A DNA stretch of 27,172 nt, taken from positions 1 through 27,172 of IMG/VR virus record IMGVR_UViG_3300030117_006216; one strand, given 5' to 3'. The DNA comes from a virus. Positions 1-26,508 of the stretch are shown piece after piece; position 1 is the first letter of the stretch; every line of letters starts with the position of its first letter. The notes beneath the pieces are model-generated. The model ran no database searches and was not told the origin of the DNA. It saw nothing but the letters and a program-made list of their open reading frames with translations. The position numbers and the translations under genes are program-made.

Positions 1-265
1 TTACCAATTTAATTAATTCATTTAATGCATTAATTGTATACAATGTATTTGTGTGCTTTTTTCTATGTAATGATATTGTATTATCTAATATAGTCGGATT
101 TTCTGAAGACTCAATATTATACGTGCACATTAACTCTCTATCATCATTAACATCTTTTAATACAAATATTTTATTAAAAATTATATCATAAGTGTCGATA
201 ATAATATCCGTTGTTTTATTTAATGATTTTTTGGGAGTAAATGTACATAATAATTGAGTATTCAT
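1..265 (-). CDS. Partial gene, conserved-looking phage protein of unknown function (C-terminus outside window)
   Basis: Reading the minus strand from the ATG at 265 gives an open frame of 88 codons that runs off the left edge. It begins MNTQLLCTFTPKKSL and ends near NTLYTINALNELIKLV. The ATG overlaps the stop of the upstream 765-residue gene in a TAATG junction, which suggests translational coupling in the same operon. The visible part is mixed Lys/Asn/Ile/Thr, with no signal peptide or membrane segment. The stretch around HRKKHTNTLYTINALNELI looks like a compact conserved core, but I cannot name its family. That it is a real gene is supported by uninterrupted frame, strand agreement and the stop/start overlap. 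Confidence 0.75.
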   Translation of the reverse strand, partial: MNTQLLCTFTPKKSLNKTTDIIIDTYDIIFNKIFVLKDVNDDRELMCTYNIESSENPTILDNTISLHRKKHTNTLYTINALNELIKLV

Positions 266-2562
266 TATTCAGTCTCCGAATTAGATATTTCTACCAAAAG
301 TGTTTGCAGTTGTTTACCTAATTGACCAGCTACCTTTGATGTCCTACCACCAGTCCTATGTGTGTCTGTTCCGATTACTATACGTTCATTATTTTTATTG
401 ACATACACCAATTCCTGCGATCCTGTAGATGGGATTATAATTTCTAATAAATGATTCTGTAGGGCTTTGTGGTCATTTATATCACCATCAAATTCTGTTA
501 GTTTTGCAAGTGCTTTTCTAAAATGGGTTGGTGTTACGGAATTATTACCATATTCTCCAACAACCCTGCCATCTACATCACCACTAACATAATCACTTAA
601 ATGGACTCTATCTAAAAACCCATTAACATAGCTTTTTACGTGAGGTCCATTTTTAGGTGGTACTCCATCTATACCCATTTCACTATCCTCTTTAGCCAGT
701 TGTTTAGTTGTTCCGGAATACATGCCTTCAATATCGGCTCCACGCTGTCTTTCAGCAGATTCCAATTTTTCCAAACCTTTACTTGCCATAATCTGTTGGA
801 CATCCTCATTATTAAATACGCCACCAAATAAAGGTTCTCCATCCTTATTGGTTTGTCCCAGCACAGTATTTATAGCCTCATCCATATTTCCACCATTTTT
901 TTCCAATACCGAATTTACCTTTGTTCTTATTGCCAATGTTACTTGCGTAGCTTTTATTAAGGAATAGGTTGCTGATGTTGCTTTTCCGGAACCAACTGAT
1001 GTCAGGTTTCCTGTTCCAGTAGCGTCTATTGTTGCTTGGGCTATTTCTTCAGGTGTAAAATCACTTTCATTATTTTGCCATTCATTACTGACTAATTTTT
1101 TCCACTCATTATATTCAGGATCCCCTGAATATGGATCTAATCCCAACAGTGCTGCTTGCACTTCAGGTGCACCCATTGCTTCGTTTGAATATTTTAATGC
1201 TCTATCTTCATCACGCTTTTGATATTCCTTTTTACCCGAACTTCCCCAATCAACAGAAAAAGCTTTACCAATTACATTAGATATACCCCGCAATTCCTCT
1301 CTCGATTCAGGTTCGGATGCTACCGCATTTATATTGTTGGCATATGTTTCATTATATGTTTCTGCCTTTTTGTGCTGTTCAGTTGCTATCCTCATAACCC
1401 TTTCAGCTCCAGCAGCTGCATCTTGTTCATCAAAATGTTTTCCTGCGTGCCTTTCAATCGATTTTAGAGTTCCATTAATAGTTGAACTTGACATTTGGTC
1501 TGCTGTACTTTGCTTATTCGTTATATAAAGTATACGCTCCCTACCTTCAGTATCATGGTAAATAACCATAGTATCAGCATCACCCTCTTTTCCTGTTACA
1601 GATTTATCTGTGGCTTTTTTCTGATAGAAATATAGTTCACTTCTATAATGTGATGCTGATTCTGAATCCCCACTAGCTTCAGCTTCTTTTAATTTTGTTA
1701 TAAGTAAATCCCTAACTACAATATTATCAGTTGTATTTATAGGGTACCCACTTGGTTGAGTTTCGTTAAATCTAATCTTTTCATTTCTTTTCATATTAGC
1801 CATGGTTCTTGAACCTGCAGATGATTTTTTTGCTAATGATGGAAACTTTTTAGAGAATGGACTATTAGGATATTTTTCACTTACATATGCATTTAATTGT
1901 TCTGATAGTGATGGGGGTTCTTCAAAATTTGGAGAATTGGCTATCTCCCTACTTATATTTGCCATTTCCTCCTGAACAGTAGTTGTTGTCCCTCCCTTTC
2001 CAACTATTTCACCGGAAAATACACCCTCTCTATATTCCATTATCCTATTATTAACATCAACAGGATCAGAAATGGGTGATACCTCAGGTGCTTCCAATAC
2101 AGATACCTTTATCGCTATATCATCAGGAGTGTCCCCAGTCCATTGTTTATCTTGAGCTGTCTTAGGAAATTTCTTATTTACTTGTTTTGGCTTTTCTACT
2201 GGTGGTTCAGTAGCAGGCTGTTCCTGTTCTTCTTCCCCAGCTTCTGCTTTCTCTATTTCTGCAGCCGAAGCATCTTTAGTAACTAATGTTTGAGTGTCGG
2301 GGTTGTGGTTTTGCACAACATATTGATTTCCTGATTTTTTATTTTTTACAATATCATCTTCAGAAAGATTATTCATATATTCTTGTACAAATTCTGGTGG
2401 ATATCCTTGCTCTGTTAATACCTGTCGTAATACTAACAAATCATATCTACTGCCCATATTAGGCGTACCATTTGATAAACGATATGCCCATTCGGTAATA
2501 ACCTTGCTTATGTTAAATGTGTGTTTCATATTATATAAATATTCAGATTTTATCTGAAACAT
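265..2562 (-). CDS. Large hypothetical phage protein, probably virion-associated
   Basis: 765 residues from the first ATG; function not recognised. The first about 55 residues after M12 (MKHTFNISKVITEWAYRL, then a Leu-rich helix and EFVQEYMNNL) look like a small helical domain, followed by an acidic Glu/Pro-rich linker (about 85-140) and a long hydrophilic, mostly helical body. No membrane segment or signal peptide is seen. A stretch near residues 315-345 (DADTMVIYHD, then ILYITNKQS) has an alternating beta pattern ending in Lys, but is too weak to call a nuclease. The ORF start at 2562 overlaps the end of the polymerase-like gene by 20 bases and has only a weak AAAG before it. M12 (ATG at 2529) fits the apparent domain boundary better, but has no SD and sits 4 bases after a promoter-like element. 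Membership of the late operon suggests a structural or injected protein; this is inference. Confidence 0.8.
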   Translation of the reverse strand: MFQIKSEYLYNMKHTFNISKVITEWAYRLSNGTPNMGSRYDLLVLRQVLTEQGYPPEFVQEYMNNLSEDDIVKNKKSGNQYVVQNHNPDTQTLVTKDASAAEIEKAEAGEEEQEQPATEPPVEKPKQVNKKFPKTAQDKQWTGDTPDDIAIKVSVLEAPEVSPISDPVDVNNRIMEYREGVFSGEIVGKGGTTTTVQEEMANISREIANSPNFEEPPSLSEQLNAYVSEKYPNSPFSKKFPSLAKKSSAGSRTMANMKRNEKIRFNETQPSGYPINTTDNIVVRDLLITKLKEAEASGDSESASHYRSELYFYQKKATDKSVTGKEGDADTMVIYHDTEGRERILYITNKQSTADQMSSSTINGTLKSIERHAGKHFDEQDAAAGAERVMRIATEQHKKAETYNETYANNINAVASEPESREELRGISNVIGKAFSVDWGSSGKKEYQKRDEDRALKYSNEAMGAPEVQAALLGLDPYSGDPEYNEWKKLVSNEWQNNESDFTPEEIAQATIDATGTGNLTSVGSGKATSATYSLIKATQVTLAIRTKVNSVLEKNGGNMDEAINTVLGQTNKDGEPLFGGVFNNEDVQQIMASKGLEKLESAERQRGADIEGMYSGTTKQLAKEDSEMGIDGVPPKNGPHVKSYVNGFLDRVHLSDYVSGDVDGRVVGEYGNNSVTPTHFRKALAKLTEFDGDINDHKALQNHLLEIIIPSTGSQELVYVNKNNERIVIGTDTHRTGGRTSKVAGQLGKQLQTLLVEISNSETE
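2534..2542 (-). promoter_or_regulatory. Copy of the ATATTTATA late-gene element
   Basis: The minus strand reads ATATTTATA here, preceded by CTGA, like the copies upstream of the capsid, neck and tail genes. It lies across the end of the polymerase-like gene, 4 bases before the alternative start (2529) of the 765-residue gene. A 7-bp stem (TTCAGAT / ATCTGAA, AAA loop, 2542-2558) directly precedes it. The proximity to the ATG makes a promoter role for that start doubtful. Confidence 0.35.
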
Positions 2563-3829
2563 CTTTCATATCATCATAATTAGCTCCAAATTGGGCTTTT
2601 ATGGGATATTTCATAGCTTTCTTAATGTCTTTCATAAAGTTAGTTCCATCCTTCATGTTAAAGTCGAATAAAAATGAATCGTATGTATACAAAACCAATT
2701 TCGAATTATATCCTTCTAAAACCTTAAATATATCATTCATTATTATGATATTTTGTTCCGTTTCATATGCCTGAATATAATAATTAAATAATTTTTGTTT
2801 ATTCATCTCTATATGATTTTTAGCATATATCGGTCTTTTTAATAAATATGTGTGGATACATTTTTTTGAACTCCATTTGAGCCATAAATCATTTATAAAA
2901 GAAATAGTTTTTCTAAAAAATTCTATATTCATAAATTCTTTTGGTATACCACCATATAATACCTTAAATGATATCTCTTTTGCATTTCCATATTCCTCTT
3001 TTGTTAAAGTATCCTTTCCAAAATATTGCTTACCTAAATATTCATGCACAGATGTTTCTGGTAATTTATAGTCTATTAAATTTGCTATCAATCTCAAATG
3101 GTATGCATCAAAATCAAATTCCAACATCCCGCCCATTTTGAATCTACTCCAATATTGTCTCCTAGATCCATCATCCTTATTTAATGCAGCATAATTTGTT
3201 CCACCATATCTATTTGATGGTCTTCCGGCCGCAGTATATAAATTATATTCCGTATGTTTTATTATATCTGCCTGATTAATTCCTGATTTTTCAATTCTAT
3301 ATAAATTATATAAGACAGCATTGCAATATGTCTTAAATGAATTCGTGACCTTTAACTCCCGCGATTTAAGCGCGATTTCCGCGAGTCTACTGCATTTTTC
3401 CTGGTGTTTTAGAATTGGTATAACCCTGTTTATCTTTGAAAAATTCCTATATTTGTTTTCGTAAAAACTATGTGCAGGAGTTGTTATATTATCGATATCC
3501 AGAGCTTCATTATTGTCAAAATAATTTAACATATTAATATCATAAATATCTAATGAATATAATTCGGGTAAACAATGAAGAAAAATCTTTTTATCCAATA
3601 CCCAAATACTTTGAGCCTTTAATATAAAAAATTCTATAATTTCGGATAAGATTATTTGATGAGATGATTCTGGGTGGTTAATAGGTATCATATACTCATT
3701 AGATCCATTCTTAACGAATAATAAACATAATTCATCTTTTGCTGGATGTAATTTATTACTAGATAATATAGGTATAACAATACTATTATCATCTACTAAA
3801 GATATTTCATTTACCTTTGTAATTAACAT
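2543..3829 (-). CDS. Family A DNA polymerase-like protein (PolA-like, divergent)
   Basis: 428 residues matching the Klenow core of DNA polymerase I in order. Residues about 30-105 resemble a shortened 3'-5' exonuclease fold, but the DxE catalytic motif is not seen. A short thumb follows (about 120-190), then YTAAGRPSNRYGGTNYAAL (198-216, counterpart of TTGRLSS..NLQNIP). Motif A is D239-F-D-A-Y-H-L-R246, keeping the catalytic Asp and the Arg but with His244 where E. coli Pol I has steric-gate Glu710. Motif B is K284-E-I-S-F288-K-V-L-Y292-G, keeping Lys758, Phe762 and Tyr766 equivalents but with Tyr280 in place of Arg754. Motif C is Y383-D384-S385 instead of HDE. Both metal-binding Asp residues are therefore present. 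No 5' nuclease domain exists. Upstream of the start is AAAAAAAAGG. The position among virion genes rather than replication genes is odd; polymerase activity is plausible but unproven. Confidence 0.8.
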   Translation of the reverse strand: MLITKVNEISLVDDNSIVIPILSSNKLHPAKDELCLLFVKNGSNEYMIPINHPESSHQIILSEIIEFFILKAQSIWVLDKKIFLHCLPELYSLDIYDINMLNYFDNNEALDIDNITTPAHSFYENKYRNFSKINRVIPILKHQEKCSRLAEIALKSRELKVTNSFKTYCNAVLYNLYRIEKSGINQADIIKHTEYNLYTAAGRPSNRYGGTNYAALNKDDGSRRQYWSRFKMGGMLEFDFDAYHLRLIANLIDYKLPETSVHEYLGKQYFGKDTLTKEEYGNAKEISFKVLYGGIPKEFMNIEFFRKTISFINDLWLKWSSKKCIHTYLLKRPIYAKNHIEMNKQKLFNYYIQAYETEQNIIIMNDIFKVLEGYNSKLVLYTYDSFLFDFNMKDGTNFMKDIKKAMKYPIKAQFGANYDDMKDVSDKI

Positions 3830-3882: not shown

Positions 3883-4524
3883 TTATTGAATGATTTCGTG
3901 GGAATGTAGTCCTAATCCAGCATAACCATACATTACAAAACAATTAGGGTAACATCCATCTTGCGACTCTTGAATTATCCAGTTTCTAATTTCATGATAA
4001 TGTTTTATATTAGGATTTTTAGGATTAATATGCTCTGAAGTATGGCCATTACCCATATCATCAACATAAACAAAATGAAAATGATCTTCCACATTAGTGG
4101 TTAATATTTGGGAGTTGTTTGTAGTATCTATAATTGCATACTCTAGCTTATCTGATAATATAGATGCCAGCTGAGGATATTTCTTAAGATGATGTTCTAT
4201 ATTCCTTTCATTGGATTCAAATACCCCGGGATACATTCGAATACCATTTTTATATTCATCATTTTTTCTACCCTTTATTCTCCAATCAACCTCAACTCCG
4301 TCATATAACGCCGCATTTAGACCCTTTCCTTTAAGTTGTAAAGTATCAAATTGTTTTTTATCAATTTCTTTGATATAAGCCCGATCATTATTTTTTGTTA
4401 CAAAATACCTTTTATAGCTACCCACGGAATAATCTGAATTTGTAGGTCTTGGTTTCATAGGTATCGGTGGATATTCACCGTCCAAATAGTCTCTCTTTAT
4501 TTTTCTATATCTTCTTCTAGCCAT
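3883..4524 (-). CDS. Hypothetical late protein with a His-rich C-terminal domain
   Basis: 213 residues. The N-terminus is very basic (MARRRYRKIKRDYLDGEYPP). Residues about 32-65 (SVGSYKRYFVTKNNDRAYIKE) look like a small beta-rich structural segment. The C-terminal half holds HFHFVYVDDMGNGHTSEHI, then KHYHEIRNWIIQESQDGCYP and GLGLHSHE, so five His-containing clusters that could bind a metal, as in trimeric tail spikes or fibre tips. There are no membrane or signal sequences. SD AGGGAT precedes the ATG. It follows the 1555-residue baseplate gene by 10 bases, so a baseplate or tail-tip role is the natural guess, but I do not recognise the family with certainty. Confidence 0.8.
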   Translation of the reverse strand: MARRRYRKIKRDYLDGEYPPIPMKPRPTNSDYSVGSYKRYFVTKNNDRAYIKEIDKKQFDTLQLKGKGLNAALYDGVEVDWRIKGRKNDEYKNGIRMYPGVFESNERNIEHHLKKYPQLASILSDKLEYAIIDTTNNSQILTTNVEDHFHFVYVDDMGNGHTSEHINPKNPNIKHYHEIRNWIIQESQDGCYPNCFVMYGYAGLGLHSHEIIQ

Positions 4525-26166: not shown

Positions 26167-26508
26167 TTATCTTGAAAAAGAACGAGGTTTTCTCTTAGGC
26201 CTACTTGGTCTAACATAATTAGGATCCTTAAATCCTAACACCCATGCTTTATCATGAGCTATCCTTCGCTTAGTTTCCTTTTTCTGCATATTAATAGCTC
26301 TATCTTTTTCTACTCTTTTCTTTGCAGATTTCTTCTCGAAATATCTTCTATCTCGTAATTCTTGTAATTTGCCTTCTTCTTTTAATTGCCTTTTGAATAT
26401 CCTCATTGCAATTTCTAATTCTTCCTTTCTAGGAACTTTTACACCGCCAGGAATGAAATATTCGTCCTTCCTTCGCGGTAATCTCTTAAAATAATTTTCT
26501 TTTGCCAT
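26167..26508 (-). CDS. rpsU: Phage-encoded ribosomal protein bS21
   Basis: 113 residues (E. coli bS21 has 71). Residues about 23-80 match the bS21 core: EELEIAMRIFKRQLKEEGKL, QELRDRRYFEKKSAKKRVEK, then a basic helix, equivalent to [20 protein letters not shown] and RRREFYEKPTTERKRAKA of E. coli. An N-terminal extension of about 20 residues and a C-terminal tail of about 30 (AWVLGFKDPNYVRPSRP, then a Lys/Arg-rich end) are extra. bS21 sits on the 30S platform near the anti-SD and helps initiation. The gene is alone between two terminators, so it needs its own promoter. No SD is visible before the ATG (upstream ATTAAAAATACTATAGT), unlike the strong AAGGAGA sites of its neighbours. Phage bS21 genes are known from several aquatic phages; here replacement or supplementing of the host protein late in infection is the likely role. 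Confidence 0.9.
   Translation of the reverse strand: MAKENYFKRLPRRKDEYFIPGGVKVPRKEELEIAMRIFKRQLKEEGKLQELRDRRYFEKKSAKKRVEKDRAINMQKKETKRRIAHDKAWVLGFKDPNYVRPSRPKRKPRSFSR

Follow-up and report, generated by a model that had tools for sequence, protein, structure and literature searches.

A phage divPolA1-type family A DNA polymerase placed in relatives between tail and replication genes

The 27,172-nucleotide viral DNA analyzed here (IMG/VR record IMGVR_UViG_3300030117_006216, hereafter the window) encodes a 428-residue DNA polymerase which almost certainly belongs to divPolA1, a family of divergent family A enzymes described by Yutin et al. (2024, Virol J 21:200, PMC11348598) in 14 phages including immuto. 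In relatives of the window phage this protein is an extra polymerase beside a regular replicative enzyme. The best explanation for the findings as a whole, to which we assign a probability of about 0.55, is that divPolA1 acts in addition to the replicative polymerase, filling gaps distributively with a 5′-3′ exonuclease (FEN) and with the assistance of a small, strictly linked partner protein. Such a pared-down second polymerase, whose active site is unusual and invariant, is retained by many large aquatic phages. Literature searches found no experiment on any divPolA1-type polymerase; immuto is in culture, on its laboratory host Flavobacterium sp. LMO8, and together with the strictly linked partner this makes it directly testable why a phage should keep two polymerases.

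A 428-residue family A polymerase

An initial reading of the window made without database searches (the sequence-only reading) had placed a family A polymerase core of 428 residues at 2543-3829. The open reading frame, which begins with ATG, matches this interval exactly and lies on the minus strand, a detail which that reading had not given. Pol I motifs A, B and C occur in order, as had been read, and both profile and fold matches agree with their assignment. The polymerase and its principal elements are as follows:

2543..3829, minus: divPolA1-type family A DNA polymerase, 428 aa (ORF, motifs, relatives, predicted fold)
3350..3829, minus: vestigial 3′-5′ exonuclease domain, residues 1-160 (model and profile alignment)
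3212..3235, minus: TAAGRPSN, the TGR motif of Pol I, residues 199-206 (alignment)
3092..3115, minus: motif A, DFDAYHLR, residues 239-246, with catalytic D239 and His244 at the Glu710 steric-gate site (alignment)
2951..2992, minus: motif B (O helix), residues 280-YGNAKEISFKVLYG-293 (alignment)
2675..2683, minus: motif C, YDS, from residue 383, with catalytic D384 (alignment)

Pfam DNA_pol_A matched the protein at E = 1.5e-5 (24.6 bits, below the gathering score of 34.3) and was the sole Pfam match counted; the DNA_pol_B domain of the T4 gp43 type was absent. Among 37 relatives, DNA_pol_A matched 25 at E ≤ 0.01, the lowest value being 1.8e-12, and two PHROG DNA polymerase families matched 21 and nine. 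Searching the PDB with the single polymerase sequence returned a chance match only, and a profile was required: the family profile matched Bst and E. coli Pol I over positions 190-424. The motif similarity of this ORF to the family A core far exceeds chance. IMG/VR holds 385 relatives of the protein. Matches in bacterial genomes fell on short MAG contigs, apparently co-binned phage DNA rather than host genes, and weak Pfam matches (barstar, RAMP, intein and similar) in the polymerase, its relatives and its neighbors were regarded as chance.

The window polymerase aligns with immuto divPolA1 at 30.7% identity over 87% coverage (E = 6e-51). In a catalytic-core tree, 11 family members including immuto grouped together on a long stem (support 100/100), the phylogeny with phage PolA that had been suggested as a check; the tree is small and five panel enzymes lacking the trimming motif were left out, so that deeper placement is unsure. 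As described in the text of PMC11348598, divPolA1 keeps the palm, has a truncated thumb and an inactivated exonuclease with all three Asp replaced, is followed by replication genes, and occurs in genomes which also encode a regular polymerase of family A, B or C. Our analysis, begun from the window, independently reproduces this description point by point; the protein shares the retained palm, the truncated thumb and the inactivated exonuclease with the divPolA1 of immuto, the replication genes and the regular polymerase are seen in relatives of the window, and nothing was found in that text to exclude it from membership. The earlier reader was unaware of this publication, and in the literature searched the name divPolA1 appears only there and in its preprint. 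Term searches of the paper's text found neither the invariant His/Tyr swap nor the linked ~130-aa partner that we describe below. Barbaviruses have divPolA2, which is likewise a divergent extra member of family A that lacks a normal thumb; according to the same text its N-terminal domain is unrelated and its neighborhood varies. In contrast, the window protein has an exonuclease-like N-terminus and a fixed neighborhood.

Nearest by profile score among the reference phage enzymes are the PolAs of Herelleviridae (54 and 33 bits), in which PolA serves as the DNA polymerase. These SPO1- and Twort-like enzymes resemble the window polymerase in the RxFxSRFxxG stretch ahead of motif A and have an HDS-type motif C, but their steric gate is still Glu.

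An unusual active site conserved in all members examined

In an alignment of 52 diverse members, some of them ~30% identical to the window polymerase, D239, H244, Y280, K284, F288, Y292, G293, Q353, Y383 and D384 are identical in every member, and N349, R203 and N212 are also invariant. Retention of both catalytic aspartates, one of the features first noticed in the window, therefore holds throughout these 52, and their loss in close relatives, named as a refuting result, did not occur. In motif B, Y280, K284, F288 and Y292 correspond to R754, K758, F762 and Y766 of Pol I. The placement of His244 at Glu710 and Tyr280 at Arg754 was likewise borne out, as was YDS as motif C. Since both substitutions are invariant across the 52 members, they are real family hallmarks and not decay in a single phage. 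The change from HDE to YDS is less odd than it appears because HDS is found in the phage PolA panel. At residue 201 (window 3227-3229) the window phage has Ala, where 51 of the 52 relatives carry the Thr of the TGR motif.

The steric gate of Pol I is known to be Glu710, which Phe762 assists (PMC13228545). Replacement of the gate by an invariant His, together with Tyr for Arg754, could point to relaxed sugar selection and the making of RNA or mixed primers. We consider this very unlikely: the assistant Phe762 is retained as F288, His is itself bulky, and immuto and every tested record of at least 170 kb encode a primase of their own (an immuto-related primase in four of four such IMG/VR records, plus Mel-JY01), so that a primase role for divPolA1 is not needed.

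A Klenow-like fold with a vestigial exonuclease and almost no thumb

The AlphaFold2 model of the polymerase, built with 37 relatives, reached a pLDDT of 90.6 and a pTM of 0.87. As had been proposed for a comparison with Klenow, the palm fold is predicted: Foldseek matched the model to Klenow 1d8y with a TM score of 0.75, and also to Bst Pol I, the Plasmodium apicoplast polymerase and Pol theta. With the Klenow fragment the protein has in common the fold, the domain order, the catalytic Asp residues, Lys758, Phe762, Tyr766 and Gln849. It differs in the His, Tyr and YDS changes above, in a thumb that is nearly absent and in the predicted lack of an active exonuclease; of the canonical Klenow-type features of full thumb, Glu steric gate and Arg754 it has none. 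Whereas bacterial Pol I carries its own 5′ nuclease, at divPolA1 loci this is a separate gene nearby.

Exonuclease motif I had gone unseen in the window. That motif is indeed lost, with P20 at D355 and L22 at E357 in the profile alignment, yet residues 1 to ~160 still form a degenerate exonuclease domain, with a DnaQ-like strand-helix order in the model (fold judged by eye). This N-terminal domain scored 21.1 against the Pol I exonuclease profile and the maximum among 60 column shuffles was 13.6, a domain-level comparison which replaced a single-sequence global hhalign to Klenow that misplaced the polymerase N-terminus. Motifs II and III also appear lost by an eye reading of the alignment, with F83 at D424 and K141 at D501. 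The interval from IExxG to TGR, which in Pol I holds the thumb, spans 23 residues in the window protein versus 112 in E. coli, and 23-41 across the family (median 33, n = 48); model residues 182 to 222 are without thumb helices. Because TGR follows IExxG after so short an interval, the thumb must be nearly absent. Most of the thumb is missing, and the N-terminus is an exonuclease remnant without its acidic residues.

A protein of this construction might be a translesion or mutagenic polymerase which tolerates damaged templates in a role comparable to that of Pol theta or Pol nu. The absent proofreading, reduced thumb, altered nucleotide pocket and linkage to a recombinase (below) are in line with such a function, and the fold search also returned Pol theta. 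However, that match is no better than the one to Klenow, and the insert loops of Pol theta would not be expected in a protein of 428 residues, leaving this in our judgment a quite unlikely role.

In relatives the polymerase opens the replication module

The genes flanking the polymerase in the window are:

3883..4524, minus: ~210-aa gene upstream, no assigned function; ends the tail cassette in many relatives
265..2562, minus: 765-aa ORF between polymerase and partner, no assigned function; optional and variable in relatives
2..265, minus: ~130-aa partner gene, 5′ part, cut by the window end (ORF list, partner search)

Across 83 loci, many of them cut by contig ends, baseplate genes are followed by the ~210-aa gene, the polymerase, usually one variable ORF and the ~130-aa gene, past which lie a gp32-like SSB, RecA/UvsX, the FEN 5′-3′ exonuclease and a DnaB-type helicase, all in a single direction. 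Mel-JY01 has the same gene order, and the immuto record begins with the polymerase, continues with the replication block and has the tail genes at its end. The polymerase is thus the first gene past the tail cassette and opens a gp32-UvsX/RecA-FEN-helicase module in relatives. The sequence-only reading had it among tail genes, which is true within the window, but relatives place it at the junction; its apparent location arises because the window stops inside the ~130-aa gene, hiding the replication side. For this 27-kb fragment, the second polymerase, SSB, RecA, FEN and helicase are seen in relatives only.

The tail-gene setting had also led to the suggestion of an enzyme carried in the virion and active immediately upon injection, and in the window the polymerase does directly follow baseplate genes on the same strand. 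This suggestion is not supported and we regard it as highly improbable, since its tail-gene neighbors reflect a boundary effect and in relatives it stands at the head of the SSB-RecA-FEN-helicase operon. Moreover, unlike many structural genes in the window, the polymerase gene has no AAGGAG-type ribosome-binding site: AAGGAG-like sites precede several minus-strand structural genes and an A-rich stretch only precedes the polymerase ATG. This may reflect different expression.

If the 765-aa ORF does not start at an internal ATG, it shares 20 nt with the 3′ end of the polymerase gene. ORFs in this position share across relatives (loci L001, L007, L022, L032, L058 and others) an N-terminal stretch of ~50 aa (EWxYRVxDGxPxPxNxxH); their remainders are variable and fall into many unrelated clusters, and the ORF is missing in five of 67 loci. 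In one subgroup (L058:7024-7935 and related loci) a RimK-like ATP-grasp ligase (Pfam E = 2.8e-50) precedes the polymerase in place of the ~210-aa gene, and locus L012 has an additional 182-aa ORF past the polymerase with, by eye, a ferritin-type appearance.

Regular polymerases accompany divPolA1 in long relatives

Of the 18 records examined that reach 57 kb, 17 encode a regular PolB or PolA alongside the mini polymerase, as do all 11 that reach 100 kb; these counts are not fully independent because some records are near-duplicates (e.g. L058 and L067). Sixteen of the 18 have PolB, immuto has a full-size PolA of 777 aa, and the sole record without a regular polymerase, G008, is a 63-kb fragment. 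The 428-aa protein is, in relatives, an extra polymerase beside the regular replicative enzyme. The earlier idea of a specialized second polymerase next to a T4-like family B enzyme accordingly holds up, with nearly all long relatives carrying a standard polymerase. One 484-kb record, LR756508.1, has three polymerase families, PolC, PolB and the mini PolA; matches lie at 47415-48068 and 260623-266900, and the PolB match is split across two frames.

Conversely, divPolA1 could be the enzyme that chiefly replicates the genome, or one of its strands, leaving the regular polymerase as an accessory. It is divPolA1, unlike the regular polymerase, that lies within the conserved SSB-RecA-FEN-helicase block, and the text of Yutin et al. 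(PMC11348598) notes the less conserved gene context of the regular polymerases and infers from context a role for divPolA1 in replication itself. Set against this are the lack of proofreading, the scant thumb and the full-size PolB (816-855 aa) of relatives. In phmmer searches with T4 proteins, relative G002 had homologs of gp43, gp41, uvsX and also gp44 and gp62, the latter two being the clamp loader; G001 had gp43, gp41 and uvsX only, and T4 gp61 and gp45 matched in neither. We hold a replicase role for divPolA1 to be doubtful.

A strictly linked ~130-aa partner

The ~130-aa protein has 22 invariant columns in 26 rows, with the core HRKKxTNTLYTINALN. Among 50,697 phage records it occurs in the same six as the mini polymerase and in none other. 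From IMG/VR, 32 further partner loci were retrieved with 3.5 kb or more of upstream sequence, and each of them carries the polymerase in that stretch, in the same orientation. The protein is strictly linked to the divPolA1 polymerase and without known relatives. Its model is of high confidence (pLDDT 92.3) and had no match in the PDB (best E 0.04); in BFVD it matched its own family only. With no solved structure matching, its function is not readable from the fold. Speculatively, polymerase and partner might be two obligate parts of one enzyme, the partner replacing the thumb or serving as a dedicated clamp and the invariant His/Tyr pocket altering nucleotide selection, an arrangement that we think unlikely.

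A proposed role in gap filling

The active site of palm and fingers is intact, and divPolA1 is very probably an active templated DNA polymerase. For a gap-filling or repair role we see about an even chance. It is the best explanation because an extra, proofreading-free and thumb-poor polymerase heads an operon of SSB, recombinase, flap nuclease and helicase. Lacking proofreading and having hardly any thumb to grip duplex DNA, the enzyme would add nucleotides distributively. It would most likely fill short gaps at Okazaki junctions, excision tracts and recombination intermediates, acting with the adjoining FEN as a split Pol I, and a separate PolB or PolA would copy the genome. The ~130-aa partner would probably supply grip or recruitment. 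Counting against this role are the replication function inferred from the same context in the text of Yutin et al. (PMC11348598) and the absence of a functional clue in the partner fold.

Elsewhere in the window, near the capsid genes, 26167-26508 (minus strand) encodes ribosomal protein S21 (PHROG S21, E = 1.7e-9); phage-encoded S21 genes are already known, for example in phages of Bacteroidetes (PMC9723584).
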